Positions 22,158-37,327 of a stretch of DNA of 37,327 nt are shown here, piece after piece. The notes beneath the pieces are model-generated. The model made no database searches. It saw only the letters and a list, made by a program, of their open reading frames with translations, and had not been told where the DNA came from. How positions within the stretch are numbered: position 1 is the first letter of the stretch; each line of letters starts with the position of its first letter. The DNA is from Pseudomonadota bacterium (GTDB lineage Bacteria; Pseudomonadota; Gammaproteobacteria; Burkholderiales; Rhodocyclaceae). The translations under genes and the position numbers were made by a program. The stretch spans positions 1 through 37,327 of the forward strand of contig JAGTRV010000007.1 in the NCBI GenBank assembly GCA_018262245.1. The letters are read 5' to 3'.

Positions 22158-25148
22158 TCAGACTTGGCGACTGGCCACCAGATCGGGGATTTTTCCGGCC
22201 GGCACCCCCGGACTGCAATAGAACCCCTGATATTCGTCACAGTGATGACTACGCAGGAACTCGAGTTGCTCGGCGGTTTCAACGCCCTCGGCAATCACCT
22301 TGCGTTCCAACTCCTCCGCGATACCAATCACCATGCGGATGATCGCTGCATCATTGGTGTTGTGCTCCAGATCGCGGACAAATGAACGGTCGATCTTGAT
22401 CTTGTCGATCGGGAAGCGCTTCAGGTAGGAGAGGCTGGAATAACCCGTTCCGAAATCATCGATCGACAGCCCAACCCCCAGCATCTTCAGTTCGTCCATG
22501 ATACGAATCACCCGCTCCGGATCCTCGATAATGACGCTCTCCGTAATTTCCAGTTCAAGATAACGTGCCTCCAGGCCAGAGCTCTGAAGCGACTGCGACA
22601 CCAAGGCGACGATATCGGCACCATGAAACTGGACCGCAGACAGGTTGACCGCCACAACCTTGGGCGCCATCCCGGCATCCTGCCATGCCTTGTTTTGCCG
22701 GCACGCCTCTTCCAGCACCCAGGTACCGATTGGCAGGATCAGCCGGCTTTCTTCCGCCAAGGGAATGAAATTCACCGGCGACACCATGCCCAGTTCCGGA
22801 TGCTGCCAGCGGAGCAAGGATTCGAAACCGATGATTTCTCCGCTATTGATATCGACCTGCGGCTGATAATGCAGCAGCAGCTCATTCCGTGACAGCGCCC
22901 AGCGCAGATCGCTCTCCAGGCGCAGACGTTCCGCCATACGGACGTTCATGTCGGCCGAGAAGAAACGGAAGGCGTTTTGCCCCGAGTCCTTGGCGTGATG
23001 CAGTGCATTATCGGCATTACGCAACAGGCTTGCGACATCATGGCCATCACTGCCCAGCAGACAAATGCCGGCCGACGCCGTAGTCACGATATCGCTTCCT
23101 TCGATCATCACAGGCTGAGCAATCGCATCCAGCAATTTGCGGGCAACCACCTCGGCCACAACGGGACGTATCCCCTGGGCGAGCAGAACGCCAAACTGAT
23201 CCCCCCCCAGACGACCAAGAAAATCACCATCCCGAAGTATTTTTCGCAAGCGCACGCTGATGCGGCGCAGCATGGCATCGCCAGCGGCATGCCCGAAAGC
23301 ATCATTGACCCGGCTCAACTGATCAAGGTCGATCAGAATCAGCGCACCTTTCCTTGCCGCTGCCAGCCACTCCCCCATGATCCGGGAAAATCCCTGACGA
23401 TTCGGCAGTTCGGTCAACTGATCGACGTGGGTCAGCGACTCGATGCGTGCCTCCGCAGCCTTGCGCTCGCTGAGATCGGTGACAAATACAGCCCAGTTGA
23501 CGACCTTGCCCGCATCGTTGCGAATCGAACTGATATTGCAATAGATAGGCAGCAAACTTCCATCCTTGCGCACAGCCTTCATCTCGCCACGCCAGACGCC
23601 CTGCTCGTTAAGCGCTAATGAAAGCTCATCCAGCGAAACCTTGTCCTGATAGCCTTCAAGCATGAAGCGCGGCGGCCGGCCCTTGAGATCGTCCAGACTG
23701 TAACCACTGATCGTCGTCACCGCCTTGTTCAGCGTAACCACCTGGCGCTCCGCATCAAGGATCAAGACAGCATCGTTGGCATGATCGAAGAAGTGGGTGA
23801 TCAGGCGCTGGCGCTCCTCGGCCTCATAGCGCTCAGTCATGTCCCAGGCCACCCCAGCCAGGCCTCTTGGCTGACCATCATCACGGTATACCGGCACGCG
23901 CAAAAACTCGAACGGCGACAGCTTGCCGCGCAGATGCAGCCAGACAACCTCGCGTACCGGCCCGCCTTTGCGATAAACCTCCAGTTGACCGTCACGCAGC
24001 ACTTTGGCCTCCTCTGCCGGGAACAGCTCATCGACGGTATGGCCAAGAACCTGCTCCATTGGCAGGCCTTTGTAGTGACAGAAAGCCTCATTGACCGCCA
24101 GATAATGCCCTTCGTTATCGAGCAGCCAGGCTGGATCGGGAATCGAATCGAGCAAGGCCCTGCCTTCACGGGTTTTATCGGCAAAATCCTTGGCCAGTTT
24201 TTCTGCCAGCGCCTCTGCCTGGCGATACCCCATTGCCCAGGAGCGCATCAGCGCAATCAAAGCAACCGCCAGCACGATGCCGAGAAAAGCATAGACCACC
24301 GCCCGGCGCCGCCATTCGGCCAGCACCTCAGCTTCGGCCAGGCCTACGGTAACCACAAATGGGAAGCCTTCTATCGCGCGGTAAGCGAATACCCGCTGCA
24401 CGCCATCCAGGCCTCCTGCGCGCCGAAAACTGCCTGACACGTCCCCCGCCATCAAGCGTGCCGAAATTGGATTATCAAGCAGCGCTCGACCTTGCCAGTC
24501 GGGCAGTTCCGGCCAACGGGCAAACAATTCCATATCCCGGCTCCACAGCGCAATGACGCCCTGCTGGCCGACATCCAAACCATGGTAGTAACGTTCGAAG
24601 TAATCGGCCCGCAAAGTGCCCAATACGATGCCGGCGAAATTGCCAGCCTTGTCCTGCAAGCGGCGGGCAAAAACGATCACGATATCGTTGGTCACACGGG
24701 AAACCAGCGGCGGAGAAATAACCAATCCGGCCGCAGGATCATCACGGAGACGAATAAAGTACGGGCGGTCACCAATATTGACATCAGCCAGCGTTCCACT
24801 GGCATCGTAGACATAATGCCCTTCTGCATCGGCTACGCGAAAACTATGCACTTCAGGGAAATTGGCCTGATAGCGCCGTAACTCGGCATCAAGGCGCTCG
24901 CGCGAGGCACGATCCACGACATCCTGCTGGAAACGCTGCACAAAATCGGAAAGATGATGATCAATCTTGCTCGCCGCCCCCTGCAGATGGCTCTCCAGCA
25001 ATTTGACCAGCGTCTGGCCGAGATGCTCGGCGGCCTGCAATTCACGCTCACGTGATTGATGAAGGTCTATACCGACCCATCCGAACAGGGAAATACATAG
25101 TGCCGTCACCAGCAACACGCCAAAACGCAAAGACAACTTCCCCGCCAT
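22158..25148 (-). CDS. Membrane-bound dCache-PAS-PAS-GGDEF-EAL protein with GGDQF site
   Basis: A 996-residue c-di-GMP signalling protein. A first membrane helix (about 9-28) and a second (about 283-303) enclose a periplasmic sensor resembling dCache domains (DRPYFIRLRDD, GLVISPPLVSR). Two PAS domains follow (about 330-440 and 450-560), then GGDEF (about 570-730) and EAL (about 740-985). The diguanylate cyclase signature is RLGGDQF at 646-652, with Gln in place of the usual Glu, and FK of the DxDxFKxxND motif is LS, so cyclase activity is doubtful. The EAL domain keeps Glu776 (ESLLRW), Asn835, DDFGTGYSSL (897-906), Lys918 and Glu954, consistent with an active phosphodiesterase. A likely role is sensing an external small molecule and lowering c-di-GMP. 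Confidence 0.92.
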   Translation of the reverse strand: MAGKLSLRFGVLLVTALCISLFGWVGIDLHQSRERELQAAEHLGQTLVKLLESHLQGAASKIDHHLSDFVQRFQQDVVDRASRERLDAELRRYQANFPEVHSFRVADAEGHYVYDASGTLADVNIGDRPYFIRLRDDPAAGLVISPPLVSRVTNDIVIVFARRLQDKAGNFAGIVLGTLRADYFERYYHGLDVGQQGVIALWSRDMELFARWPELPDWQGRALLDNPISARLMAGDVSGSFRRAGGLDGVQRVFAYRAIEGFPFVVTVGLAEAEVLAEWRRRAVVYAFLGIVLAVALIALMRSWAMGYRQAEALAEKLAKDFADKTREGRALLDSIPDPAWLLDNEGHYLAVNEAFCHYKGLPMEQVLGHTVDELFPAEEAKVLRDGQLEVYRKGGPVREVVWLHLRGKLSPFEFLRVPVYRDDGQPRGLAGVAWDMTERYEAEERQRLITHFFDHANDAVLILDAERQVVTLNKAVTTISGYSLDDLKGRPPRFMLEGYQDKVSLDELSLALNEQGVWRGEMKAVRKDGSLLPIYCNISSIRNDAGKVVNWAVFVTDLSERKAAEARIESLTHVDQLTELPNRQGFSRIMGEWLAAARKGALILIDLDQLSRVNDAFGHAAGDAMLRRISVRLRKILRDGDFLGRLGGDQFGVLLAQGIRPVVAEVVARKLLDAIAQPVMIEGSDIVTTASAGICLLGSDGHDVASLLRNADNALHHAKDSGQNAFRFFSADMNVRMAERLRLESDLRWALSRNELLLHYQPQVDINSGEIIGFESLLRWQHPELGMVSPVNFIPLAEESRLILPIGTWVLEEACRQNKAWQDAGMAPKVVAVNLSAVQFHGADIVALVSQSLQSSGLEARYLELEITESVIIEDPERVIRIMDELKMLGVGLSIDDFGTGYSSLSYLKRFPIDKIKIDRSFVRDLEHNTNDAAIIRMVIGIAEELERKVIAEGVETAEQLEFLRSHHCDEYQGFYCSPGVPAGKIPDLVASRQV

Positions 25149-25553: not shown

Positions 25554-25581
25554 ATTGTAGCAGAAGCGCGAAAATGGTCAA
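25554..25581 (-). promoter_or_regulatory. Sigma-70 promoter of tRNA-Ser
   Basis: On the minus strand TTGACC (25581-25576) and TACAAT (25559-25554) are separated by 16 bp, placing the start of transcription a few bases before the tRNA 5' end at 25542. A GC-rich discriminator (GCGCGGC) follows the -10, as expected for a stringently controlled stable-RNA promoter. Confidence 0.85.
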
Positions 25582-25847
25582 ACAAACTTTCGGAAAAAAG
25601 CCAGTCCAAACCAGAGCAGTAGCAGTAGCGCAAAACTGGCAATGCCGATCACATTCTCATTTGATGAACGCGGCAACAGCGCAGCAACAACCCGCCGAGG
25701 TGCCTTGGTCAACAAATCGAATAATTGGTAGATACGATTATTTGCCCGGTGCCGCCCCGCCAGGATGTGGAGCATGCCCTGCCCGAGAAGGCACAGGCCC
25801 AGCATCTCAATGATGGCTCTGGCGGCACTGATCAGGAAAAAGATCAC
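25578..25847 (-). CDS. Small two-helix membrane protein, last gene of the symporter operon
   Basis: An 89-residue ORF beginning at GTG, nine bases after the DUF4212 stop. It has hydrophobic segments at about residues 2-28 (FFLISAARAIIEMLGLCLLG) and 64-84 (ASFALLLLLWFGLAFF) around a basic middle, so it is probably an inner-membrane hairpin. I do not recognise a family. Its tight spacing behind the symporter pair suggests a shared role, perhaps an accessory subunit. No clear ribosome-binding site is seen, which lowers confidence; the 3' end overlaps the tRNA promoter -35. Confidence 0.6.
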   Translation of the reverse strand: MIFFLISAARAIIEMLGLCLLGQGMLHILAGRHRANNRIYQLFDLLTKAPRRVVAALLPRSSNENVIGIASFALLLLLWFGLAFFRKFV

Positions 25848-25856
25848 GACGACAGC

Positions 25857-26108
25857 CTAATCTTCATCCACACCGAATTCGGCATCGATCTTCCTCATCC
25901 GCCTGTTGTACCACCAGATGATCAGCAGGAAGATCACCAGAGAACCTTGAGCAGCCATGTAGAAACCAAGCGGAAAACCGAGAAATACCATCTCGTTCAC
26001 TTCCCGGGAAAACCAGGTCACGCCAAAAGTCAGACAGATCCAGCAGAGGAGCAGCGTAAAGGTCAGTCGTTTGGTCCGGCGCCAGTAGGCATCAGCTTTG
26101 GCCATCAT
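25857..26108 (-). CDS. DUF4212 small subunit of sodium:solute symporter
   Basis: An 83-residue protein with two membrane helices (about 16-34 and 43-67) and the family landmarks YWRRTKRLT, GFPLGFYMAAQGSLVIFL and WWYNRRMRKIDAEFGVDED. Such proteins occur next to a particular branch of sodium:solute symporters and are regarded as their small partner, analogous to DUF485 (YjcH) beside ActP. The ATG overlaps the symporter stop. Function is inferred from family and position. Confidence 0.9.
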   Translation of the reverse strand: MMAKADAYWRRTKRLTFTLLLCWICLTFGVTWFSREVNEMVFLGFPLGFYMAAQGSLVIFLLIIWWYNRRMRKIDAEFGVDED

Positions 26109-28141
26109 GACGATGCCTCATTGCGAAAGCGGATGCCTTTAAGGAAGCTGATCGCTCCAGGCTCCGGCTTGGTCACCAAGCTGACCAGGATGATCGTTGC
26201 AAAGCCAGCCAGAACGCCGAAGAAACCGCTGGAGGTGGCCTGAATATGGAGCCACGGTTCCATATGAAGACCACTGATACCCAGCCATGGAATGGTGTCG
26301 AATTCGACACGTACAATGTAGTAGATCGAAAGCAACACACCGACAATCATCCCGGCCAGCGCCCCCTGACGCGTCGCCCGCTCCCAGAAAATACCGAGCA
26401 CCAGTGCCGGGAAGAAAGCAGAACCGGCAATCGAGAAGGCCCAGGCGACCATGGACAAAATCGTACCCGGCTTTTGTGCTGCAACGGTTGCTGCAAGGAC
26501 GGCAACGACCAGCAACATCGACTTGGAGATCACCAGCCGGAACTGCGTCGAAGCATCCGGACGGATGATTCGATAATAAACATCGTGAGACAGTGCACTG
26601 GTGATCGTCAGTAACAAGCCATCGGCAGTGGACAGCGCAGCGGCCAAGCCCCCCGCCGCCACCAGCCCGGAGACAACGTAGGGCATACCGGCGATTTCCG
26701 GCGTCGCCAATACGATAACGTCCGGATTCAATGAAAGCTCGGCCAACTGGAGAATGCCATCGCCGTTTATATCCTCGATGCTGACCAGCCCTACCTTGGC
26801 CCACGCGGCCACCCAACCGGGTAATTTCGCGATGGGAATTTCAGCCAGGTGGGACAGGACCTCGTATTTGGCAAATACGGCATAGGCCGGCGCCGTAATG
26901 TAGAGCAGCAGAATAAACAACAGCGACCAGAACACTGATTCACGTGCTTCGCGGACCGATGGCGTCGTGTAATAACGGGTCAAGATGTGCGGCAAGGCGG
27001 CGGTGCCAACGGTCAGGCAGAAGACAAGCGCCAGAAAATTGATCCGCTGAATATTCTGTTCTTCGGCGGTCTCGCCAGGAAAGGCTTCCGCATGATGAAT
27101 CGGTTGCTTGCTGCGATCTGCCGCCGAAAACATGGCACTTTCCCAACGAGTCTTTGCCTGATCCGGGTCGTGTGGCAAATCCCGCCGATGTCTTTCCAGC
27201 GCGACAATCTCCTTCATCTGCGCATCGCTGGCCTTGAGGCGATTGATCTCGGTGGAAAGCTGCTCACGCTCATGGATCAGGGAGTGCGGTAGCTGCATGA
27301 TCTTCTGGGCGTACAGATCGGCCCTTTCACGAAAAAGCTGGCGCACCTCAATCTCGGCCGGCGTATCGAACAAACGATTTTCGAGTTCGGTGACCTGCTG
27401 CAGCACCTGCCCGTAGACCAGTTGCGGGATCGGATTGCCGGTCACGTTGTAAGACAGGATGGCCACCGGTGTCACATAGGCAACGATCAGGATCAGGTAT
27501 TGCGCGACCTGAGTCCAAGTGACGGCCTTCATGCCACCGAGAAACGAGCAGACGAGAATACCGGCCAGGCCGACGAAAACGCCAATTTCGAACTGCAAAC
27601 TGACGAAACGGCTGGTGATGACGCCAACGCCGTAAATCTGAGCAACAACATAGACAAAGGAAGCAAGAATGGCTGCCGCCACGGCAACCAGGCGAATGGC
27701 GTTACCGCCGTAGCGGGCCCCCAGGAAATCGGGAATGGTGTATTGACCAAAACGCCGCAGATAGGGCGCCAATAACAGCGCGACCAGCACGAAGCCACCG
27801 GTCCACCCGATCACATAGGCCAATCCCTGAAAACCGGAGAGATACAGCGTGCCCGCCATGCCAATGAACGAGGCAGCACTCATCCAGTCGGCACCGGTCG
27901 CCATGCCATTGAAGAAGGCGGGAATCTTCCGGCCAGCCACGTAGTATTCCGAAACGTCGGACGTCCGGCTAACGATCCCGATCAGGGCATACATCGAAAT
28001 CGTGAAAAACAGGAAGGAATAGCCGATCCAGCGCGGCGGCATGCCATGCTGTTCAAGGATGGCCAGCGCACCGATGAACGCTAGGAAGCAGCCTGTGTAA
28101 TACAGGTAGTAGCGCTGCAGCCTGGTCAGCGATTTCAACAT
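26105..28141 (-). CDS. Sodium:solute symporter (VC_2705-type, acetate/carboxylate permease-like)
   Basis: A 678-residue permease, longer than ActP (about 550). Core transport motifs include SEYYVAGRKIPAFFNGMA, GADWMSAASFIGMAG, RFGQYTIPDFLGARYG and AGGLAAALSTADGLLLTI. Two unusual parts stand out. A hydrophilic, helical insert at about residues 240-365 (e.g. LQQVTELENRLFDTPAEIEV) may form a coiled coil. Between later helices lies DINGDGILQLAE at 457-468, matching an EF-hand calcium loop. The likely substrate is acetate or another small carboxylate. It starts nine bases after the upstream exonuclease-like gene. Confidence 0.9.
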   Translation of the reverse strand: MLKSLTRLQRYYLYYTGCFLAFIGALAILEQHGMPPRWIGYSFLFFTISMYALIGIVSRTSDVSEYYVAGRKIPAFFNGMATGADWMSAASFIGMAGTLYLSGFQGLAYVIGWTGGFVLVALLLAPYLRRFGQYTIPDFLGARYGGNAIRLVAVAAAILASFVYVVAQIYGVGVITSRFVSLQFEIGVFVGLAGILVCSFLGGMKAVTWTQVAQYLILIVAYVTPVAILSYNVTGNPIPQLVYGQVLQQVTELENRLFDTPAEIEVRQLFRERADLYAQKIMQLPHSLIHEREQLSTEINRLKASDAQMKEIVALERHRRDLPHDPDQAKTRWESAMFSAADRSKQPIHHAEAFPGETAEEQNIQRINFLALVFCLTVGTAALPHILTRYYTTPSVREARESVFWSLLFILLLYITAPAYAVFAKYEVLSHLAEIPIAKLPGWVAAWAKVGLVSIEDINGDGILQLAELSLNPDVIVLATPEIAGMPYVVSGLVAAGGLAAALSTADGLLLTITSALSHDVYYRIIRPDASTQFRLVISKSMLLVVAVLAATVAAQKPGTILSMVAWAFSIAGSAFFPALVLGIFWERATRQGALAGMIVGVLLSIYYIVRVEFDTIPWLGISGLHMEPWLHIQATSSGFFGVLAGFATIILVSLVTKPEPGAISFLKGIRFRNEASS

Positions 28142-28150
28142 CCGACGGTG

Positions 28151-28822
28151 CTAATGGTTGCGGCGCAGGAAACTGCTGGCCCGCGATTCGTCGACCAGAT
28201 GCTTCGCCGTATCGATCTGTTTGCCCACGGCACGGACCAGCAACATCTGGAAGATACGGCCGATCAGCAGCGTATTGGCCATCGCATCACGCCGACCACT
28301 ACCGGAATCCAGACCGAAGACGTCGATCCAGTGATCAAGCGGCATGACTGTATGCCCTTTCTCTTCGAACATCGAGGGCAGCAGCCAGGCCAGATCAACC
28401 CATTGCGGCTGGAAATCGACCCCCAAGCGCTCCTTGAAGGCACGCTGCAGAAAGCCACCAACATAGGGCACGTGATAAGTCACCAGCGGCGCCTTGGCTG
28501 CAAACAGCAGGAAGGCCGCCAGTTGGCGATCAACGGCAGCGCCCTCGCCATCCAGCGTCGAGAAGTCGATATAGAAGGTATCGTCAGGCTGGATTGCCCC
28601 TTGCCAGACGCTGCTGGCTGCGATGCTCAGCAACTGGTCGCTATCGGGTTGCAGACCGCTACTGACGATGTCTACGACGATATAGCGGGTATGAAAATGC
28701 AGGTCGTCCAGCGCCGGAGCGGCACTGGCCCGCCAGCCCTCAAGCGAGGCACGGACATCATCCGGCAGATGGGAAGGTGCGCCACCCCGAAACAGGAATT
28801 TCTTGAGGCCAAGCATGGTCAT
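28151..28822 (-). CDS. Degenerate DnaQ-like (DEDDh) exonuclease-fold protein
   Basis: A 223-residue protein with the RNase H-like exonuclease layout. The first motif reads IVVDIVSSGL (residues 48-57) where active enzymes have DTETTG, so Asp51 is kept but the Glu is Val53. The second motif is VTYHVPYVGGFL (114-125) where HNAxFDxxFL is expected, losing the Asp. The third has GSGRRDAMA with Asp179 but no histidine five residues before. Three of five catalytic residues are therefore missing; it is probably not a nuclease but a binding or regulatory protein. The start overlaps the upstream gene (ATGA), and it lies between the CBS/nucleotidyltransferase gene and the symporter gene. Confidence 0.82.
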   Translation of the reverse strand: MTMLGLKKFLFRGGAPSHLPDDVRASLEGWRASAAPALDDLHFHTRYIVVDIVSSGLQPDSDQLLSIAASSVWQGAIQPDDTFYIDFSTLDGEGAAVDRQLAAFLLFAAKAPLVTYHVPYVGGFLQRAFKERLGVDFQPQWVDLAWLLPSMFEEKGHTVMPLDHWIDVFGLDSGSGRRDAMANTLLIGRIFQMLLVRAVGKQIDTAKHLVDESRASSFLRRNH

Positions 28823-30789
28823 TGCACCTGATAGTCGAGTTTGAGGCGCGTCTGGATCTTGCGGGCCTGACGGAAGGATTCTTTCAGGATACGGCGATCC
28901 AGTTCATTCAAGGTATCCGGATCGATCAGATTGTCCCCCTGCGTCCCCGGCTCGCCTTCCAGATACTGGTGCTGCAGGCGCAATAGCTGGATGAAATTGA
29001 GCCCTTCGAGCACCGCGTTGATTTCTTCGCTGCGAATAGACAGGCGCTGCGACGCCAGCCGCAGACGCTGGATCGAATTGGTGTTGTGCACCCCACTGGC
29101 CATCGCATAGATACGCGCGACATCAACGAAGATGCGTGAGCCGTATTTCTTGAGATCGATCTTGCCCGGATGATCAGGTTCGAGATCGGTCAGGAAGTCA
29201 CGAATCTTGCCCAGCGGCGGTTCGACATCGAGCGCATTTTTCGCCATGGCCCGCAGGAACATCGGATTGGCTGCCGTCTGGGCGAGCAGGTGGCGACGCA
29301 TGGCTTCGGCCAGCTCCGCCTTGCCGAACAAGGCGCGGAAATCGAAGAAAATGGTTGCATTGAGCAGCGCATCCGGATGCGGCACGCGAATCCAGTTGGC
29401 AAACTGATCCTTCCACTGTTCAAGCGTCAAGCACCATTGCGGATTGCTCGCCATGATGTTGCCCTTGCACAGAGGGAAGCCGCAGCGGTCAAGATCCTTG
29501 TTCACATCCAGCGCGTAGGCAAGGAAGCGCTGCTTGAGCGCCTCCTCGGAAGCCCCTTCCGGCGGCAAGAAGACGATGCCGTTATCCTGGTCGGTACTGA
29601 AGGTTTGCTCGTCGCGACCTTCAGAGCCAAACGCCAGCCAGGCCCATTCGATGCCGTCAAAATTATGCTTTTCGAGGTTGAGCTGGATAACCCGGCGAGT
29701 CAGCGCATCGTTCAGCGCCGAGATAAATTGGGTCAATTGTTCCGCACCGACTCCCTGCGCCAGCATGTTGAAGGACAGCTGCCGAACATCGGCTGCCGCA
29801 TGCTGGAGCACTTCGACGTTGTGGGCACCGTCGATGGCCTGACGAATCTGGCGCAAACCGACGCGCTGCAGCGAGAACAGATCGCGCTCGGAAACGACCC
29901 CAGTCAGCTTGCCTTCGGCATCGGTGACCAGCACGTGGCGAATGCCGTGCGTCGCCATCGCGAACATCGCATCGTAGGCCGTGGCGTGCTCTTCGATCAT
30001 GAAAGGATTTTGCGACATGGCCTGAGCAATCGGCGTCGTCAGTGGCAGGTCGGCCAGAACGACACGGTCAAGCAGGTCGGTACGCGTAAAGACGCCAACC
30101 GCCTTGCGATCCTCGCCGGCAATGACCAGCGAACCAACGCCGGCTTGCGACATCGTTTCCAGCGCAGCACGTAACGGCGTATCCGGCGAAACGGTGACCG
30201 GCGAGCGCGAACCGATGCCGGCCAACGGGGAATTGAGCGTCTGCTGCTCGCTGGCGCGCTGGGCAAATTGTAGTTGTAGCTGGCGACGCGACTGATCGAG
30301 CAAGCTGGCGATGTACTTGGTGCAAAACAGGTTGAACTCCGGGCTGGATGACATCAGCGCCAGGAAATCCTCGGCCGGCAACTGGTAGCAGAAGGTGTCC
30401 TCGACTGCCGTATAGACGTTGGTCGATGGCCGGCCGGCCGTCACTGCGCCAATCGGAAAGCTTTCACCGGCACCAAGACTGAGGATGGAATACTCGGTCA
30501 CGGTCACTTCGCCTGCCTGGCGGGCCTGCACCTTGCCGGACTCGATCAGGTAGAAGAAACGGACATCGCCGGAGTCCGGCCCGATGATCTGGCTGCCGGC
30601 CGGGTAAAACGCAATCTGTGCCTTCTCGGCAAAGCGTTGCAGCGCGTCCGGCTGCATCTTGTTGAACGGTGCGTGGTTGCGCAGAAAAGCCAAGGTGTTG
30701 CCGGCCATACGGGCACGCCCTTCCTGGCGCAGTGTCATTTCCACTTGGCCCACGGCCATTTCCTGCCCTGATTGCTGTTGCGTATTCAC
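28819..30789 (-). CDS. cNMP-binding / CBS / DUF294 nucleotidyltransferase-like signalling protein
   Basis: 656 residues from a GTG start with GAGG six bases upstream. Domain order: cyclic-nucleotide-binding fold (about 35-150, FYLIESGKVQARQ, GESFPIGAV), two CBS domains (about 195-245 and 255-310), the DUF294 nucleotidyltransferase domain with GSEGRDEQTFSTDQDNG (Gly388-Ser389 and the D-x-D pair Asp400/Asp402), and the DUF294 C-terminal domain (KIDLKKYGSRIFVDVARI). The nucleotidyltransferase core resembles GlnD-type uridylyltransferases, but no transferase substrate is known to me. The CBS and cNMP modules suggest control by adenine nucleotides or cAMP-like ligands. Confidence 0.92.
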   Translation of the reverse strand: MNTQQQSGQEMAVGQVEMTLRQEGRARMAGNTLAFLRNHAPFNKMQPDALQRFAEKAQIAFYPAGSQIIGPDSGDVRFFYLIESGKVQARQAGEVTVTEYSILSLGAGESFPIGAVTAGRPSTNVYTAVEDTFCYQLPAEDFLALMSSSPEFNLFCTKYIASLLDQSRRQLQLQFAQRASEQQTLNSPLAGIGSRSPVTVSPDTPLRAALETMSQAGVGSLVIAGEDRKAVGVFTRTDLLDRVVLADLPLTTPIAQAMSQNPFMIEEHATAYDAMFAMATHGIRHVLVTDAEGKLTGVVSERDLFSLQRVGLRQIRQAIDGAHNVEVLQHAAADVRQLSFNMLAQGVGAEQLTQFISALNDALTRRVIQLNLEKHNFDGIEWAWLAFGSEGRDEQTFSTDQDNGIVFLPPEGASEEALKQRFLAYALDVNKDLDRCGFPLCKGNIMASNPQWCLTLEQWKDQFANWIRVPHPDALLNATIFFDFRALFGKAELAEAMRRHLLAQTAANPMFLRAMAKNALDVEPPLGKIRDFLTDLEPDHPGKIDLKKYGSRIFVDVARIYAMASGVHNTNSIQRLRLASQRLSIRSEEINAVLEGLNFIQLLRLQHQYLEGEPGTQGDNLIDPDTLNELDRRILKESFRQARKIQTRLKLDYQVQ

Positions 30790-30808
30790 GACAACCTCAT
30801 CTTTTTCT

Positions 30809-31864
30809 TCAAAGTGAATAGTTTAACTTGAGACGCTGTTGCAGGCGGCGTGCCTGCTTGAGTGCCTCACGCAGAATGGCCCGATCCATGTCATGCAGCG
30901 CAGCGGGTTTCAGGCCCCCACCCTCCGCTTCGCCCTTCACCGAGGCAGCCATCTGCTGTCCCAGTCGCAATCGCAAAATCTGTGAAAAAGCCGCATTGAG
31001 CGCAGCTATTTCAGCCGCTGGCAAACCGATAGCAGCGCCGGCATCGTTCAGGCGATCAACGGTATTTATCCCTCTCGCCCCACTGGTCAGCGCAAAGATA
31101 CGCGCCGCATCGACAAAGATCCGGCTACCGTATTTCTTGAGGTCGATCTCATCATCTTCGTTGACCGCCAGTTCGCCGCGAAAATTGAGCGGCACTTCGG
31201 CCTGCAGCGCATTCGCCGCCATCAGGTGCTGAAACGATGGCGTGGCAACCGTCATCGATAGCAGCAAGGTCCGCAGGCGCTCCCCCAGTTCAAGCTGACC
31301 GTACAACGGCCGCAAATCGAAGAAAATGCTGGCATTAAGAAGCGCCCCCGGGTCCGGCCGCCGTACCCAGTCGATAAACCGGCCTCGCCACTCATCCAGG
31401 GAGAGACACCACGCCGGATTGCCGGCCATGATCTGTCCACTGCATAGCGCGAAACCGCAGGCGGCCAATTGCCGATTGACATCCTGCGCGAAGGGCAGGA
31501 ACAACTCGCGCAGCGCGGCGGCCTCCTGATCGCTCGTCGCGTTGAAGATCAGGCCGTTATCCTGATCGGTGACAAAAGTCTGCTCATGGCGCCCCTCGGA
31601 ACCCAGCGCCAGCCAGCACCAGGCCACCGGCGGCAGGCGATGTCGCTGGGCTGTCAACTCGATGATCTTTTCAGTCAGCCGGTCATTGAAATCCGAAATG
31701 AGCCGTGTTGCCGCGCAACCATCCAGTCCGCCACTGATCGCGCGCTGTTGGAATACGTGCAAACGCGCCGCCAAGGCCGGAGCCGCTTCGAGATCGAGCA
31801 GCGCATCCAGCGCCGCCGTCAGCTCAAGCGGCTCAGTACAAGACAGAAGGATGTCGGAAATCAC
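30809..31864 (-). CDS. Short DUF294 nucleotidyltransferase-like protein (paralogue without sensor domains)
   Basis: A 351-residue protein from a GTG start seven bases after the stop of the upstream gene. It aligns with the C-terminal half of the following 656-residue protein: ALGSEGRHEQTFVTDQDNG (Gly88-Ser89, Asp100/Asp102) and EIDLKKYGSRIFVDAARIFAL, so it has the nucleotidyltransferase and C-terminal domains but no cNMP or CBS domains. Active-site residues are intact. The two genes are a tandem duplication or split of function and may form heterodimers (inference). Confidence 0.88.
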   Translation of the reverse strand: MISDILLSCTEPLELTAALDALLDLEAAPALAARLHVFQQRAISGGLDGCAATRLISDFNDRLTEKIIELTAQRHRLPPVAWCWLALGSEGRHEQTFVTDQDNGLIFNATSDQEAAALRELFLPFAQDVNRQLAACGFALCSGQIMAGNPAWCLSLDEWRGRFIDWVRRPDPGALLNASIFFDLRPLYGQLELGERLRTLLLSMTVATPSFQHLMAANALQAEVPLNFRGELAVNEDDEIDLKKYGSRIFVDAARIFALTSGARGINTVDRLNDAGAAIGLPAAEIAALNAAFSQILRLRLGQQMAASVKGEAEGGGLKPAALHDMDRAILREALKQARRLQQRLKLNYSL

Positions 31865-31871
31865 ACCAGTC

Positions 31872-34037
31872 TCAGTATTTCACCCGTGCGAAATAGGTCT
31901 TCTCGGCCGCTTCGAGCGCCTGGCGAACGGTGACGATACCCTGATCTTCCAGAAGCTTGACCAGTTTCAGGAAAACCTCGCCAGTGGCCAGCGCATCTTC
32001 GAGGGCGTTGTGGCGCTTGCCGATGGCGATACCGAGCCGCTCCAGAATCACATCCAGTTTGTGCGACTCCTGGTTCGGATGGACAACTGCAGAAAGCAGC
32101 AAGGTATCGAGCACCGGCTGGGTGAAACGGATGTTGGTTCGCTCTTCCTTGAGTTGCAGAAAACGCATGTCGAAGGCCGCGTTATGCGCAATCAGCACGG
32201 TGTCCTCACAGAACTCATGGAAGGCCGGCAGCACGACATCAATGTTCGGCTGGCCACGCACCATGTCCTCGGTAATGCCGTGGATCGGGATTGACGCCGG
32301 TTTCAGCGGAATCTCAGGATCGACAATCTGATTGAAGGTCTCCTGCCGCAATAAGCGGTTATTGACGATACGGGCGGCGCCAATCTGGATGATCTCATCG
32401 CCGTTGGAAGGCTCCAGCCCGGTCGTCTCGGTGTCGAACACGGTATAGGTGAGGTCTGACAACTTGCGATCGAGGTCGATCGACTTGTCTTCAAACTTAA
32501 AAAGGTCGAAGTCGTAGTACTCCGGACGCCCCTTGCCACGGGTACGTTCCTCCTGATCCTGTTCAAGCTCCGGCGTTGCCACCGGCAGCACGAAACGGAA
32601 GTAGGCGCGGTGCGCCGCTTTTTCGCGCTGATACCAAATTTCGCCACCGTGCCGATCGATCACGTCACGCAGGGTCAGCGGCGAAGTTTCGCTACCGACC
32701 TGCATGGCCTCCATTTCCCATGTGTAGAAGGTTTCCGACGACATCGCCGGCCCGGCCCAGATCAGATCGAGATAGGCCAGCTTGCCGCTGGAGGTCAGGC
32801 GAAAGCGCAACTCACGCGGCTCGTAGTGATCCTGTAGCTTCGAGGCAAGGCAGACCAGCGCAAAGACCAGCGAGAAACTGTCGGCCTTGATCCACAAGGC
32901 ATCGTCCATTTCCTCCGTCTTGGTCGGCAACTTGAGCTTGTCGTCGATACGGCGCTGGGCGGCGGCGATGATGTCGATACCGAGAATGTCCTCAAGCGGC
33001 CAGCGCGTCTTGATGGCATCGGAAAACTGGCTCATGGTCTGGTCAATGACCACGCTGCGTTTGGCCACTTCGTCATCGATCACGCGCAGGAAACGCTCGC
33101 GCAACTCGGCTTCCATGTCCGGGTAGTCGAGCAGATTGGCCACGGCCGCACGGATATTGCCGATGGAGGAACGGCTGCCCTGGGTCAGCGTGTGCAGCGC
33201 CTGATCCCGACGCTCTTCTTCCTCGATGCTGCGCGTGATGTTTTCCACCGTCAGCACGTAACCCGACATCGATACCTCAGCTGCCTCACCGGGAGAGGTG
33301 GCCAGCACGGGCACCATCTGGATGCGCAACAACTGGCCACCACGTGTTGTCGTGATGAAATTCGAGATCGCCGTTTTGCCAGCGATCAAACGCTGGTGGA
33401 TGACTTCACGGGCATGCTCGATCTGCCCCTTTTCAAGAATAGAGAAAATCGAACGTCCGAGACCGATCAGCGCCCCACCCGCTACCGAGGTCGGGCCTTG
33501 TGACAGCGCCTTGAACTGCAGACGAGCACGGTTGTTATAGAGCAGGATGCGGCCATCAAGATTGCAGACAACAACGGCCTGCGCCAACTCTGACATCAGC
33601 GCCGCCAGCCGGTTTTTCTCTTCCTCGACCGATGCCTTGGCGATTGCGATCTGGGAATCGACATCATCCATCAGCGCATCGCGCTGCTGGGCCAGATCGT
33701 TCGCCGCCTGGGCCAGCTGCTGGACCTCCGGGGGCCCCTCGATCGTCACCCGAAAGTTTCGGTTCGCACCGAGCATTAAACGCAGGGTTTCCGCCATGCG
33801 CAGCAAGCCCTCGACGTATTGCTTGAACAGTTTGTGCAAGACCAGCACGCCAATGACAAAACCGAACAGCGTCATCATCGTACCCACCGGCAGCCGTGAC
33901 ACCAGCAGATTGGTGAGCATGCCGCGCTCGGCCTCCTTCATGTCCAGCCAGACAAGTAAAGAAGTAACGACAAACGGACCGGTCATCAGCAGACCGAGAA
34001 CGATCACGGCGACGATTAAACGATGTTTGGCCTTCAT
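31872..34037 (-). CDS. Membrane pseudo-histidine kinase fused to a DnaQ-type 3'-5' exonuclease
   Basis: 721 residues from the ATG at 34037 (GGGA eight bases upstream); the frame also allows an ATG at 34046 and a TTG at 34094. Two membrane helices (about 7-31 and 50-69) are followed by a HAMP-like linker, a PAS-like domain (about 145-270), a region placed like DHp (about 275-345) and a degenerate ATPase region (to about 487). No phospho-acceptor histidine is at the expected place (Gln286), and N-box and DxGxG motifs are absent. The C-terminal domain (about 528-698) is an intact DEDDh exonuclease: Asp535/Glu537 (FDTETTG), Asp623 (HNAAFDMRF), His676 and Asp681 (HNALEDALATGEVF). It probably links a membrane signal to nucleic acid or oligonucleotide cleavage. 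Confidence 0.88.
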   Translation of the reverse strand: MKAKHRLIVAVIVLGLLMTGPFVVTSLLVWLDMKEAERGMLTNLLVSRLPVGTMMTLFGFVIGVLVLHKLFKQYVEGLLRMAETLRLMLGANRNFRVTIEGPPEVQQLAQAANDLAQQRDALMDDVDSQIAIAKASVEEEKNRLAALMSELAQAVVVCNLDGRILLYNNRARLQFKALSQGPTSVAGGALIGLGRSIFSILEKGQIEHAREVIHQRLIAGKTAISNFITTTRGGQLLRIQMVPVLATSPGEAAEVSMSGYVLTVENITRSIEEEERRDQALHTLTQGSRSSIGNIRAAVANLLDYPDMEAELRERFLRVIDDEVAKRSVVIDQTMSQFSDAIKTRWPLEDILGIDIIAAAQRRIDDKLKLPTKTEEMDDALWIKADSFSLVFALVCLASKLQDHYEPRELRFRLTSSGKLAYLDLIWAGPAMSSETFYTWEMEAMQVGSETSPLTLRDVIDRHGGEIWYQREKAAHRAYFRFVLPVATPELEQDQEERTRGKGRPEYYDFDLFKFEDKSIDLDRKLSDLTYTVFDTETTGLEPSNGDEIIQIGAARIVNNRLLRQETFNQIVDPEIPLKPASIPIHGITEDMVRGQPNIDVVLPAFHEFCEDTVLIAHNAAFDMRFLQLKEERTNIRFTQPVLDTLLLSAVVHPNQESHKLDVILERLGIAIGKRHNALEDALATGEVFLKLVKLLEDQGIVTVRQALEAAEKTYFARVKY

Positions 34038-34106
34038 GGCACGCATCCCGACAAATTTAGGCTTGGATTTCGACCTGTTCAGGCCGTGGACCAAAGAATT
34101 CAGTGA

Positions 34107-34478
34107 TCAGGCAACCCCGAGCATGGCCTTCACCATGGCGACCAGTTCCTTGGTCGAAAAGGGCTTGGTCACGTAAGCATCGGCCCCGATCGCCAGGCCT
34201 TTTGCCACTTCGGTATCGCGTCCCTTGGCCGTCAGCATGACAATTTTCAACCCCGCTCTGGCGGGATCGGCGCGCAAGGCTTCGCAGACTTCAAAGCCGG
34301 ATTTCTTCGGCATCATCACGTCGAGCAGAACGAGATCAGGATCAAAGTCGGCCACCTTGGCCAAGGCTTCTTCGCCGTCGACCGCGACGGCGACAGCGAA
34401 TCCCTCTTTTTTCATCAAGAACTCAAGCGAGATGACGATATTCGGTTCGTCATCGACGATAAGGATTTTTTTGGTCAT
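34107..34478 (-). CDS. Receiver-only response regulator, partner of the SSF-STAC kinase
   Basis: 123 residues from the ATG at 34478, backed by the strong site GGGAGAC; longer in-frame starts overlap the kinase gene. It is a complete receiver domain: Asp9-Asp10 (ILIVDDEPN), Asp53 (LVLLDVMMP), Thr83 (MLTAKG) and Lys105 (YVTKPFS). There is no DNA-binding output, unlike CrbR/CbrB, the usual partners of this kinase family. It sits 16 bp after the kinase and 69 bp before the kinase-like exonuclease gene, so that protein is a plausible downstream target (inference). Confidence 0.92.
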   Translation of the reverse strand: MTKKILIVDDEPNIVISLEFLMKKEGFAVAVAVDGEEALAKVADFDPDLVLLDVMMPKKSGFEVCEALRADPARAGLKIVMLTAKGRDTEVAKGLAIGADAYVTKPFSTKELVAMVKAMLGVA

Positions 34479-34494
34479 GTGTTTGTCTCCCTTG

Positions 34495-37206
34495 TTATTC
34501 CTCCGATGCCGGTAACGGCACCGTGAAAATGAAATTCGCACCCTCGCCCGGGTGGCTTTCAACCCAAAGCTTACCACCGAAATATTCGATGATCTGACGA
34601 CTGATCGGCAGCCCCAGACCCGTACCTTTTGGCTTGCCGGTCAAGGTGTTTCCGCCCTGACGGAATTTTTCGAAAATGACTTCGCATTCCTCGGCCGTCA
34701 AGCCCGGCCCATTGTCCCTTACCTCGACCCGAACCATATTGCCATCAACCCCTATCTTGACCTGAACGCAGCCAAGTTCCCCCGGCACGAATTTGACGGC
34801 ATTCGACAACAGGTTGATCAACACCTGTGTCAGGCGATCGCGATCAGCCAGCACAATCGGCCCGCCGTCGGGAATATCGCCCTCCAGCAGAACGCCTTTG
34901 TCACGGAACAACTGACCGACCGAATCCATGGTCTCCCGGGCGATCTCGCCGAGATCGACTTCGCCGGTCGTCCATTCGGCACGTCCCGATTCCAGCTTGG
35001 CCATGTCAAGAATCTGATTGATCAGACGAGTCAGCCGTTCGGCTTCACCGACGATGATGCCGAGAAACCGCATCCGCTCGACCAGTTCCAGCCGAGGGTC
35101 TTCATGCAGCATTTCCGATAGGGCCCGAATCGATGTCAGCGGCGTGCGCAACTCATGGGTCACTGTCGAGATGAAATCGTCCTTCATGCGATCCAGCTCA
35201 CGCAGTCGTTCATTGGCCTCGCGCAACTCGGTCGTTGCCGCTTCGAGTTCCCGCTGTTTGGCCTCCAACTCACGACTGTGAGCCCGCACCTGAGTGGCCT
35301 CGTCGAGAATATCGAGTACCTCCTCCAGGCCAAGGTCTTCCTCCTGGGCCACCGAAGCGACCATCACCCGGGCGCTGGCCGAGCCGATCGCTCCGGCCAG
35401 CTCGGCCTCAGCGAATTGCACGAACGGCGCATCGACAGGTAGAGCCCGCCAATCAGCCATCTGCCTGCCCTGGGCATAAAGACCCAATTGTTGATGCGCC
35501 CGGTTCGCCCCCAAGAAGCGCTCAAGCAAACCAACCAGCGCATCCAGCGAGGCTTTGCCACGCCACAGCCTGGCCTCGGCCTTGTGCTGGTCAAAGCGAA
35601 AGACATCGACGAAACGTTCGGCTTGACTGGCCTCGACGGCATCCGGTGTCGAGTGCAGCGACACCGCAACATAAGCGCCGATATTGGCCAGCATGCTCCA
35701 CCACAGGCAATGTGAAATCTCATCCAGGCCGGACAGACCGAACAACGCCTGCGCTTTCAACCAGCCAATCCCGAACAGGCCGTGCTCGACAAAACCACTG
35801 GCTATCCAGCCGGACTTGGCGAACGACGGCAGCAACAACGTATAAAGCCAGATCACAAAACCGGCCGACAACCCAGCCACCGCACCGGCCCGGGTACCCT
35901 GCTTCCAGTACATGCCGCCAAACATGGCCGGCGCAAACTGGGCAACCGCGGTGAAGGAAATCAGACCAATGCCAACCAACGCATACGCCTCGCCAGCCGC
36001 CCGGAAATAGATGTAGCCAAGAAGCAGGATCAGGGCAATGGCGATACGCCGAATAGCAATCAACAATCCAGACAGGTCTTGCCTGTTCTCGGCCTGCAGC
36101 CAGGTCGAGCGGAGCAGCCACGGCATGACCAGATCGTTGCAAACCATGGTGGACAAGGCAATGGTCTCGACAATGACCATCCCCGTCGCTGCTGACAGAC
36201 CGCCGATGAAAGCAAGCAGAGCCAGCACCTCGGCACTGCGGGCCAACGGCAAGGTCAGCACGAAAGTATCCGGATTGAAGCCCTGCTCGCCAAAGTGCAA
36301 CAATCCACCCAGCGCCACCGGCAGCACGAAAATATTGATCAGCAGCAAATACAGCGGAAATAGCCAGACCGCTCGCTTCAGGTGCGACTCATCGACGTTT
36401 TCAACGACAATGATCTGGAACTGGCGCGGCAAGAAAATGATCGCCAGACCGGACAGCACAATCAGCGAGGTCCACGTTCCGGCCCGGCTCGAATCCAGTT
36501 GCAGCAAACGACCAAGCTCGGGGCTGGCCGCCGCCCGCTGAAAAAGATCACCCAGGCCACCAAACATGCCATAGGTGACAAACAGACCTACCGCCATGAA
36601 CGCAATCAGCTTGACCACAGATTCGAAAGCCACGGCCGCCACCATGCCTTCGTGCCGCTCCGTCGCATCAAGATGGCGTGTCCCAAACAGAATGGAGAAA
36701 AGTGCGAGAACGGCGGCAATCAGAAAGGTGGAATCCAGGCCCCAGAAATGGACGGCGCTACCTGAGTGCTCCAGCAAGACATCGACGCTGGCCGCCACTG
36801 CCTTCAGTTGCAAGGCGATGTAAGGCACGACACCGATCACCGCGATGATGGTGACCATGCCAGCCAGCAACTGGCTCTTGCCATAGCGCGACGCGACAAA
36901 GTCGGCAATCGAGGTAATGCGCTGCGCCTTGCTGATGCGGATCATCTTGATGATGACGCCGACGCACAACAGCATCAGGGTCGGCCCGAGATAGATGGTC
37001 AGGAACGACAGACCGCCAGAGGTTGCCCGGCCAACGCTGCCGTAGAAGGTCCAGGAGGTGCAATAGACCGCCAGCGACAGCGCATAGACGTTGGCAGAAA
37101 TAATCGACTTGCCGGCATCGGCTCGTGCATCGCCAAAACGCGCCACGCCGAACAGCAAGCCAAGATAGGCCGCCGCCAGCAGTGCGATGAACCATCCGGA
37201 CAACAT
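34495..37206 (-). CDS. SSF-STAC hybrid sensor histidine kinase (CbrA/CrbS-like)
   Basis: A 903-residue sensor. Residues 1-515 form a 12-13 helix sodium:solute symporter domain (VYCTSWTFYGSVGRAT, FGTRHLDATERHEGMVAA, AAVAFESVVKLIAFMAVG). A STAC domain lies at about 525-635 (RFVDVFRFDQHKAEARLWRG). A coiled coil (about 640-675), HisKA with His684 in VTHELRTPLTSIRALSEML, and an HATPase with Asn802 (NLLSNAVKF), DNGPGL (831-836) and GTGLGL (861-866) follow. Known relatives sense or transport histidine (CbrA) or respond to acetate (CrbS). Unlike CrbS I see no PAS domain. All catalytic motifs are intact. The start codon abuts the stop of the upstream small gene (TAAATG). Confidence 0.94.
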   Translation of the reverse strand: MLSGWFIALLAAAYLGLLFGVARFGDARADAGKSIISANVYALSLAVYCTSWTFYGSVGRATSGGLSFLTIYLGPTLMLLCVGVIIKMIRISKAQRITSIADFVASRYGKSQLLAGMVTIIAVIGVVPYIALQLKAVAASVDVLLEHSGSAVHFWGLDSTFLIAAVLALFSILFGTRHLDATERHEGMVAAVAFESVVKLIAFMAVGLFVTYGMFGGLGDLFQRAAASPELGRLLQLDSSRAGTWTSLIVLSGLAIIFLPRQFQIIVVENVDESHLKRAVWLFPLYLLLINIFVLPVALGGLLHFGEQGFNPDTFVLTLPLARSAEVLALLAFIGGLSAATGMVIVETIALSTMVCNDLVMPWLLRSTWLQAENRQDLSGLLIAIRRIAIALILLLGYIYFRAAGEAYALVGIGLISFTAVAQFAPAMFGGMYWKQGTRAGAVAGLSAGFVIWLYTLLLPSFAKSGWIASGFVEHGLFGIGWLKAQALFGLSGLDEISHCLWWSMLANIGAYVAVSLHSTPDAVEASQAERFVDVFRFDQHKAEARLWRGKASLDALVGLLERFLGANRAHQQLGLYAQGRQMADWRALPVDAPFVQFAEAELAGAIGSASARVMVASVAQEEDLGLEEVLDILDEATQVRAHSRELEAKQRELEAATTELREANERLRELDRMKDDFISTVTHELRTPLTSIRALSEMLHEDPRLELVERMRFLGIIVGEAERLTRLINQILDMAKLESGRAEWTTGEVDLGEIARETMDSVGQLFRDKGVLLEGDIPDGGPIVLADRDRLTQVLINLLSNAVKFVPGELGCVQVKIGVDGNMVRVEVRDNGPGLTAEECEVIFEKFRQGGNTLTGKPKGTGLGLPISRQIIEYFGGKLWVESHPGEGANFIFTVPLPASEE

Positions 37207-37327
37207 TTACTTGCCCCGCCGCTCAGCCACCCAGGCTGCCAATGCAATCAGACCAGCCCAGACGCCAAAGAGATAGAGATAGCTTGCCGGAATCCCCCCC
37301 ACGCTGCCTCCGGGCAGACTGAGCAAG
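37207..37327 (-). CDS. C-terminus of a small membrane protein upstream of the SSF kinase (partial)
   Basis: The frame enters from the right edge and ends at TAA (37209-37207), directly touching the kinase ATG. The last 39 residues include PGGSVGGIPASYLYLFGVW and then a hydrophobic helix ending in AERRGK. Similar short proteins with a C-terminal helix and an ERR-type tail precede SSF kinases in related bacteria, as far as I recall. Its start lies outside the window and its role is unknown; translational coupling suggests it works with the kinase. Confidence 0.75.
   Translation of the reverse strand, partial: LLSLPGGSVGGIPASYLYLFGVWAGLIALAAWVAERRGK

Follow-up and report, generated by a model that had tools for sequence, protein, structure and literature searches.

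A predicted operon of ten genes on the minus strand of contig JAGTRV010000007.1 encodes a histidine kinase (HK) with a transporter-like sensor, a receiver-only response regulator (RR) and a membrane exonuclease (EXO) fused to a catalytically dead kinase. We propose, with a probability of about 0.65, that this operon serves the uptake of and the response to short-chain carboxylates (acetate, pyruvate or propionate), and that phosphorylated RR would act on EXO by way of the dead kinase. The proposal draws on the conservation of the three genes as neighbours, on the apparent kinship of the dead kinase to the HK beside it, and on a sister system in which HK-RR pairs of the same family adjoin a transcription factor that bears a kinase graft. 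The stretch studied (37,327 nt; hereafter, the window) is the whole contig; it belongs to a metagenome-assembled genome of 3.78 Mb, 84% complete, which its relatives place in the Dechloromonas/Azonexus group.

The HK-RR-EXO core

The three core genes are consecutive:

37206–34495, minus strand: HK, 903 aa, with an SSF domain, a linker at the STAC position, HisKA and HATPase_c (Pfam/NCBIfam, and a match to 10ed_A)
34478–34107, minus strand: RR, a receiver-only response regulator (Response_reg, 2.1e-29)
34046–31872, minus strand: EXO, with two transmembrane helices, a PAS-like segment, a pseudo-kinase (DHp and CA) and a DEDDh 3′-5′ exonuclease (RNase_T, 1.7e-34)

The start of EXO was taken as the ATG at 34046; a TTG at 34094 and an ATG at 34037 are further candidates. 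The transmembrane helices of EXO were recognised by eye, the PAS-like segment matched Pfam PAS_4 at 0.19 only, and the pseudo-kinase was not detected by Pfam at E ≤ 1. For the parts that Pfam misses (this pseudo-kinase and the SSF part of HK) profile–profile comparison was used, and the kinase part of EXO aligned end to end with the kinase core of HK (hhalign 3.4e-18 and 4.6e-22, with two settings); six control profile pairs gave probabilities of 0.0–0.1%. The position of the phospho-accepting histidine is occupied by Glu, Asp or Gln in 123 of 130 relatives, and by His in none, and the N and G boxes for ATP are absent by inspection; the five exonuclease residues (D554, E556, D642, H695 and D700), in contrast, are kept in 128–130 of the 130. 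An earlier reading of this DNA, made from the letters alone (the sequence-only reading), had described a pseudo-kinase joined to an exonuclease, and the alignment and the kept residues bear this out. A reading of EXO as an ordinary DnaQ with housekeeping duties was rejected, as its long N-terminal part is conserved along with the exonuclease.

A profile of the EXO pseudo-kinase (E ≤ 10), run against the kinases present in the fetched stretches rather than against kinases at large, found 120 of 122 close SSF-HK open reading frames (ORFs), with 24.9–56.9 bits (median 37.6). Of eight SSF-kinase ORFs at a greater distance (L238 and seven hybrids of the CrbS type) it found one, at 7.4 bits, and of 84 other HK-like ORFs it found nine; among six of these nine that were inspected were an SSF-HK fragment (L046) and three ScfR proteins with a DHp graft (see below). 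Twenty more ORFs without a clear HK score gave 5.2–22.9 bits, with ScfR proteins at the top. On these comparisons, the dead kinase of EXO appears to be a degenerate form related to its partner HK's kinase core, and this kinship would explain how EXO could bind the same RR.

The HK itself looks active in its kinase core: H684 is kept in 104 of 105 relatives, as are the N and G boxes (G1, G2). Its SSF part had no Pfam match even at E ≤ 1, yet residues 8–463 match a solved histidine kinase, 10ed_A, at 1.7e-74; the transporter-like sensor claimed by the sequence-only reading is thus confirmed, as a member of a family that was already known, as that reading had itself said. Pfam gave no PAS or REC match for HK and no STAC model among the matches at the STAC position, where the segment aligns with CrbS-type hybrids; these large hybrids, assigned by architecture, match HK over about residues 1–648. 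A related sensor half was seen on Azoarcus sp. KH32C plasmid pAZKH (L248, 6181–9123), where AZKH_RS23785, annotated as EAL domain-containing, carries an HK-like SSF/linker part without the kinase; it may represent the same sensor half placed on an output of the cyclic di-GMP (c-di-GMP) type.

In RR, Asp53 and Lys105 are kept in all 123 EXO-linked and all 31 EXO-less regulators, and Asp10 in 119/123 and 31/31, respectively. Thr83 is present in 116 of the EXO-linked sequences (Ser in six more) and in 31/31 of the EXO-less ones, while positions including 17–19, 65, 87, 93, 94, 102 and 109 differ by output group.

Among 51 loci from named records, RR adjoins EXO in 48 and HK is adjacent in 45. The fetched stretch also has a DUF294 protein in 48 loci, SSF permeases in 41 and DUF4212 in 40; the misses include contig ends (L039, L060, L073), two Accumulibacter loci (L072, L074) and L068, which are described below. 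In the GTDB family of the window's genome, an EXO match at E ≤ 1e-60 was present in 103 of 150 sampled genomes. From those with a match, 60 loci (57 genomes) were picked: RR was adjacent in 50 (one of the misses, L139, is a split EXO) and HK in 48, with DUF294 proteins in 35 stretches and SSF permeases in 32. Used as a query without the exonuclease, the N-terminal part of EXO was present in 37 of 398 Pseudomonadota genomes; 20 of these were fetched, and RR was adjacent in 20/20 and HK in 13/20, with DUF294 in the stretch in 18/20. On plasmids, RR and HK each adjoin EXO, and DUF294 lies in the stretch, in 3/3 loci: Cupriavidus necator pBB1, C39 p1, and plasmid 1 of Paracoccus denitrificans PD1222, where a nucleotidyltransferase (NT), a small protein, HK, RR and an 'exonuclease domain-containing protein' are found together and the core genes bear the tags PDEN_RS25405/25410/25415. 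Gene order varies by group (for example, NT-RR-EXO-HK). The sequence-only reading had called for a survey of the genes' conservation; the HK-RR-EXO core is kept well beyond the genus, but the full gene order was seen in Dechloromonas/Azonexus-type loci only, among those examined. The long gene set is typical of that group, and the core is more widespread.

A sister system with a grafted ScfR protein

The ScfR family of short-chain acyl-CoA regulators includes RamB and PccR. We picked, among the matches listed, 31 loci with HK-RR pairs of the same family that lack EXO, and in 28 of them (L226, L229–L235, L288–L304, L308–L310) an ScfR-type protein stands beside the pair, within 600 nt of RR except at L226 (about 4 kb); a grafted member of the family thus takes the place of the output beside relatives of HK and RR. 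Six of these proteins were run against Pfam: all six have the ScfRs domain and a helix-turn-helix, and four of the six an IrrE-like domain. All 28 carry an inserted segment that matches the DHp profile of the SSF-HKs (10.7–37.2 bits), with His at the phospho-acceptor position in 28/28. Unlike the grafted proteins, canonical ScfR proteins from 30 loci (39 ORFs, overlapping wrong frames included) scored no higher than 3.8 bits for DHp, and the canonical rows inspected in the alignment have no DHp insert. No ScfR is present in the operon of the window and none was found in its genome.

In a quick tree of HK (65 rows), eight kinases linked to ScfR cluster together (SH-aLRT 97) and seven hybrids make up a second cluster (100). 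The EXO-linked kinases fall into three groups; L228 and L244, without an adjacent EXO, sit in one of these. The kinases of P. denitrificans and of genome G381 nest with EXO kinases from the order to which the window belongs, despite the ScfR version being carried by other genomes of the family of G381 (f73); this placement suggests that the type of output goes with the kinase more than with the host. Some branches of this tree were flagged as long, and such counts carry limited weight because the sequences are related.

The rest of the operon

Between 37327 and 25578 lie nine complete minus-strand genes, preceded by the final 39 codons of another, and we read them as one operon on their strand and spacing. 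From 5′ to 3′ along the operon the spacings are 0, 16, 60–69 (12 with a TTG start), 7, 19, −4, 9, −4 and 9 bp, so that the count of ten same-strand genes and the tight packing given by the sequence-only reading both stand, with gaps of −4 to 69 bp. So does its anatomy of the parts: HisKA/HATPase, Response_reg, RNase_T, DUF294/DUF294_C (twice), CBS, cNMP, a VC_2705-type SSF protein and DUF4212 were all found. A simple promoter scan gave a sole promoter-like match, at the end of the last operon gene. Terminator-like matches, counted on both strands, were above expectation (21 against 12.9 expected, sd 3.7); those on the minus strand all lie within coding sequence, and none in the intergenic gaps. 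That the operon is unique to the window was ruled out by the loci of relatives with the same genes. Around the core, the features are:

37327–37207, minus strand: final codons of a small ORF that runs off the contig (frame read from the sequence)
31864–30809, minus strand: short-form NT, DUF294 and DUF294_C (PF03445 5.7e-45, PF10335 1.5e-33)
30789–28819, minus strand: long-form NT, cNMP, two CBS, DUF294 and DUF294_C (Pfam)
28822–28151, minus strand: stand-alone DEDDh-fold protein, 223 aa, predicted to be catalytically dead (NF005836, 6.6e-11)
28141–26105, minus strand: VC_2705-family sodium/solute symporter, large subunit (TIGR03648, 782 bits)
26108–25857, minus strand: DUF4212 sodium/substrate symporter, small subunit (TIGR03647, 102 bits)
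25847–25578, minus strand: 89-aa membrane protein, last gene of the operon, no family
after the operon, minus strand: tRNA-Ser gene

The small ORF abuts the start of HK directly (TAAATG). In many loci an ORF like it, about 65 aa long and with a pair of hydrophobic stretches, stops close to or at the HK start, as judged by eye; the copy in L042 had no Pfam family above cut-off. The gene further upstream in relatives is acs, for acetyl-CoA synthetase, identified by reading its sequence in L042 and not by a family scan. Of the 45 named loci with HK, 37 extend 900 nt or more upstream, and in all 37 acs is on the same strand within 1000 nt before HK; of 48 other family loci, 47 extend far enough, and acs is so placed in 32. 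In L042 a terminator-like hairpin (by eye) and the small ORF lie between acs and HK. This neighbour points to short-chain carboxylate metabolism as the theme of the locus. The best match to acs in the window's own genome had just 43% identity, and the absence is probably an assembly gap, because the contig ends at that point.

Both NTs belong to DUF294, with PF03445 and PF10335 above cut-off and GSxGR and DxD present. The short form carries GSxGRxEQ..DQDN, and a phmmer search of it against the PDB gave no match; in the long form, G388, S389, R392, E394, D400, Q401, D402 and N403 are present in 91/91 relatives. In the 223-aa protein, for which all NCBIfam matches were below cut-off and DEDDh matches weak (best 0.0027), the positions of E556, D642 and H695 hold other residues in 47/47 sequences (the window's and 46 relatives), and that of D700 in 45/47, in line with the dead exonuclease fold of the sequence-only reading. 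By comparison, a live stand-alone exonuclease, with its catalytic residues kept, accompanies a DUF294 protein in L236 and L242, out of seven hybrid loci of the CrbS type; the other five have neither within the stretch. In the Dechloromonas/Azonexus operon it looks as if the activity had moved to EXO.

The large symporter subunit (TIGR03648) adjoins the small DUF4212 subunit, the two-subunit arrangement of the VC_2705 type. Residues 457–469 of the large subunit form an EF-hand-like loop (DxNxDGxLxxxE), preceded by a charged insert of very roughly 80–120 aa (by eye); D457, N459, D461 and E468 are invariant in 69/69 relatives, which suggests a Ca2+ site in a loop of the transporter. The 89-aa protein had no family match in Pfam or NCBIfam, and an ORF like it occupies the same position in most complete Dechloromonas/Azonexus loci. 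Past the tRNA-Ser gene, a Cache-PAS-PAS-GGDEF-EAL protein is encoded at 25148–22158 (minus strand). As a target of the operon by way of c-di-GMP it was set aside: it lies beyond the tRNA gene, and among the loci compared L034, the nearest relative, is the only one with a good match after the operon.

Proposed mechanism, known systems and alternatives

In the proposed mechanism the SSF-type HK would sense a carboxylate or its flux, as its family and the neighbouring acs and permease genes suggest. It would autophosphorylate at His684 and pass the phosphoryl group to Asp53 of RR, for which the motifs are seen. Phosphorylated RR (RR~P) would then dock on the dead kinase of EXO, perhaps in the manner of DivK on DivL, and alter the activity of the DEDDh exonuclease, a step suggested by homology, by neighbourhood and by the sister ScfR system. 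At the weakest step, the NTs, of which the long form has CBS/cNMP inputs, and the exonuclease would act in opposite directions on the same target, a nucleotide or the 3′ end of an RNA, and so tune the output of permease and acs after transcription; the dead stand-alone exonuclease may serve as a non-catalytic partner. A phosphorelay that ends in an enzyme acting on nucleotides, raised as a possibility by the sequence-only reading, is the best hypothesis we have, and it is strengthened because the HK-RR-EXO core is conserved beyond the genus and because a sister lineage carries a DHp-grafted transcription factor.

More tentatively, and at somewhat less than even odds, the two lineages may reflect a modular two-component design in which a receiver-only RR governs whichever protein bears grafted DHp helices from the RR's own kinase. 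One branch would keep the His and lead, through a phosphorelay, to a transcription factor of the acyl-CoA type; the other would have lost it and lead to a membrane exonuclease with DUF294, so that carboxylate sensing would end in nucleotides being added to and removed from a shared target.

The statement of the sequence-only reading that no described pathway uses all of these parts was too strong. The MxtR/ErdR system of Pseudomonas, equivalent to CrbS/CrbR (Pseudomonas, Vibrio, Sinorhizobium), shares the SSF-type kinase, and its regulon already joins acs, the actP permease, a DUF294 protein and an exonuclease (PMC9927547). In P. putida, MxtR/ErdR is reported to control acs, ErdR to bind the promoter region of pp_0354 (a CBS protein), which forms an operon with pp_0353 (an RNase_T exonuclease), and mxtR, erdR, pp_0353 and actP-I to matter for growth on pyruvate (PMC9927547). 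This pair and its P. aeruginosa counterpart PA3233-PA3232, the latter beside actP, have the same two activities as in the window and belong to the same regulon (PMC9927547), but PP_0353 is a stand-alone RNase_T, whereas in the window the stand-alone copy is dead and it is the copy fused to a kinase fold in the membrane that is live. PA3232–PA3235 are described as upregulated during growth on propionate, PA3233–PA3235 as going down after propionate addition, and a PA3234 mutant as growing normally on propionate (PMC9765439). CrbS is a hybrid kinase with PAS and REC and has a LuxR-type partner, CrbR; RpuS of Sinorhizobium likewise has a LuxR-type partner (PMC9100948, PMC7918813, PMC5436829). The system of the window differs from CrbS in an HK without a PAS or REC match, a receiver-only RR and an active-looking exonuclease fused to a membrane pseudo-kinase, and from CrbR in that the RR of the operon is a receiver alone, an unlinked CrbR not having been searched for. 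One genome (G509) carries both the CrbS-type hybrid and the EXO-linked kind (L193, L242). No second SSF-kinase was found in the window's genome, at 84% completeness, so the HK system may here stand in for CrbS/R.

Two other systems share single features. CbrB is a DNA-binding regulator, and we know of no exonuclease or NT in the CbrA/CbrB system. The histidine transceptor CbrA/CbrB shares the SSF-kinase, and cbrX, before cbrA, resembles the small ORF in position (PMC9100948). In Caulobacter, DivL is a PAS-containing pseudo-kinase that binds the phosphorylated single-domain regulator DivK (PMC5361649). The pair resembles RR and EXO in joining a single-domain, phosphorylatable regulator to a kinase fold, which in EXO lacks the phospho-His and the ATP boxes; DivL, however, passes its signal to the CckA pathway, whereas EXO carries its own enzyme. 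Searches of open-licence PMC, judged by titles and abstract openings, turned up no recognisable description of an HK-RR-EXO system. What would be new is the direct wiring of RR to EXO; signalling by SSF-kinases and the gene set of the regulon are already known.

Several observations weigh against the proposal. EXO stands alone, with neither RR nor HK nearby, in two Accumulibacter loci (L072, L074) and at L118, L119, L125, L133 and L140–L143 (L133 and L140 are second copies, the other copies in those genomes, L132 and L091, respectively, standing with HK and RR, or alone); at L068 RR is kept and HK is reduced to a scrap, and HK is non-adjacent in seven of the 20 phylum loci. Conversely, HK and RR have neither output beside them at L305–L307 (the three of the 31 EXO-less loci without an ScfR neighbour) and at L228, which is outside the 31. 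An AlphaFold2 model of EXO (45 sequences) was weak (pLDDT 58.9, pTM 0.31) and is not used as evidence. Deletion of pp_0354 in P. putida is reported to have no phenotype on acetate, succinate or pyruvate, and deletion of pp_0353 none on acetate (PMC9927547). The NT is missing from the stretch in 25 of the 60 family EXO loci. DUF294 proteins are frequent with EXO, and in the 31 EXO-less loci none reaches 5 bits, which favours an NT and an exonuclease sharing one nucleotide end, but this contrast is soft, because only eight of the EXO-less stretches, all with ScfR, are of 20 kb (17 are of 7.5–8 kb and six of 12–14 kb), while EXO stretches are often near 20 kb.

Some of these points fit a plainer explanation, in which the operon merely bundles the MxtR/ErdR (CrbS/R) acetate/pyruvate set, RR passes its signal to a transcription factor encoded elsewhere, and EXO is an independent enzyme of RNA turnover with an old kinase fold. 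That acs, permease, NT and exonuclease are one target set in Pseudomonas, that HK-RR adjoins a transcription factor in the sister lineage and that several loci have EXO without RR all agree with it. We nevertheless consider it unlikely, as the pseudo-kinase fits the partner HK better than the other kinases of the loci, RR stays beside EXO in all of the phylum loci despite changing order and neighbours, and no DNA-binding family was found among the operon proteins in Pfam and NCBIfam scans. Far less probable still is that the kinase fold of EXO serves as an RR~P sink or buffer with feedback on HK, and with the exonuclease as a constitutive passenger: a pseudo-kinase can bind and stabilise RR~P, as described for DivL (PMC5361649), but in EXO it is the exonuclease residues that are kept and the kinase residues that are lost, and the sister output is a transcription factor.

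The remaining alternative is a version of the proposal itself, in which nucleic acids are not the substrate. NT would add a nucleoside monophosphate (NMP) to a protein, such as the permease pair, as GlnD does to PII, and EXO would remove it. The conserved NT motif and the presence of NT with EXO in many loci, against none in the eight ScfR loci of 20 kb, speak for such a switch, and protein nucleotidylation has been predicted for P. fluorescens Pflu5625 (PMC5715377); the pflu5625 mutant, however, is reported to have no phenotype (PMC5715377), which also counts against a role of NT in the proposal as a whole. The loci without NT argue against it as well. Since we know of no DEDDh exonuclease that strips NMP from a protein, we regard this version as improbable, and prefer RR~P acting on an exonuclease with a nucleotide or RNA end as its substrate.

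The outputs of two-component systems are mostly transcription factors or second-messenger enzymes. If the proposed action of RR~P on EXO is correct, the conserved kinase-receiver-exonuclease chain would link the sensing of nutrients directly to the processing of RNA or nucleotides, and would offer a mechanism to look for behind the pyruvate phenotype of pp_0353 in P. putida. The sister pair with a DHp-grafted ScfR makes the docking hypothesis testable.

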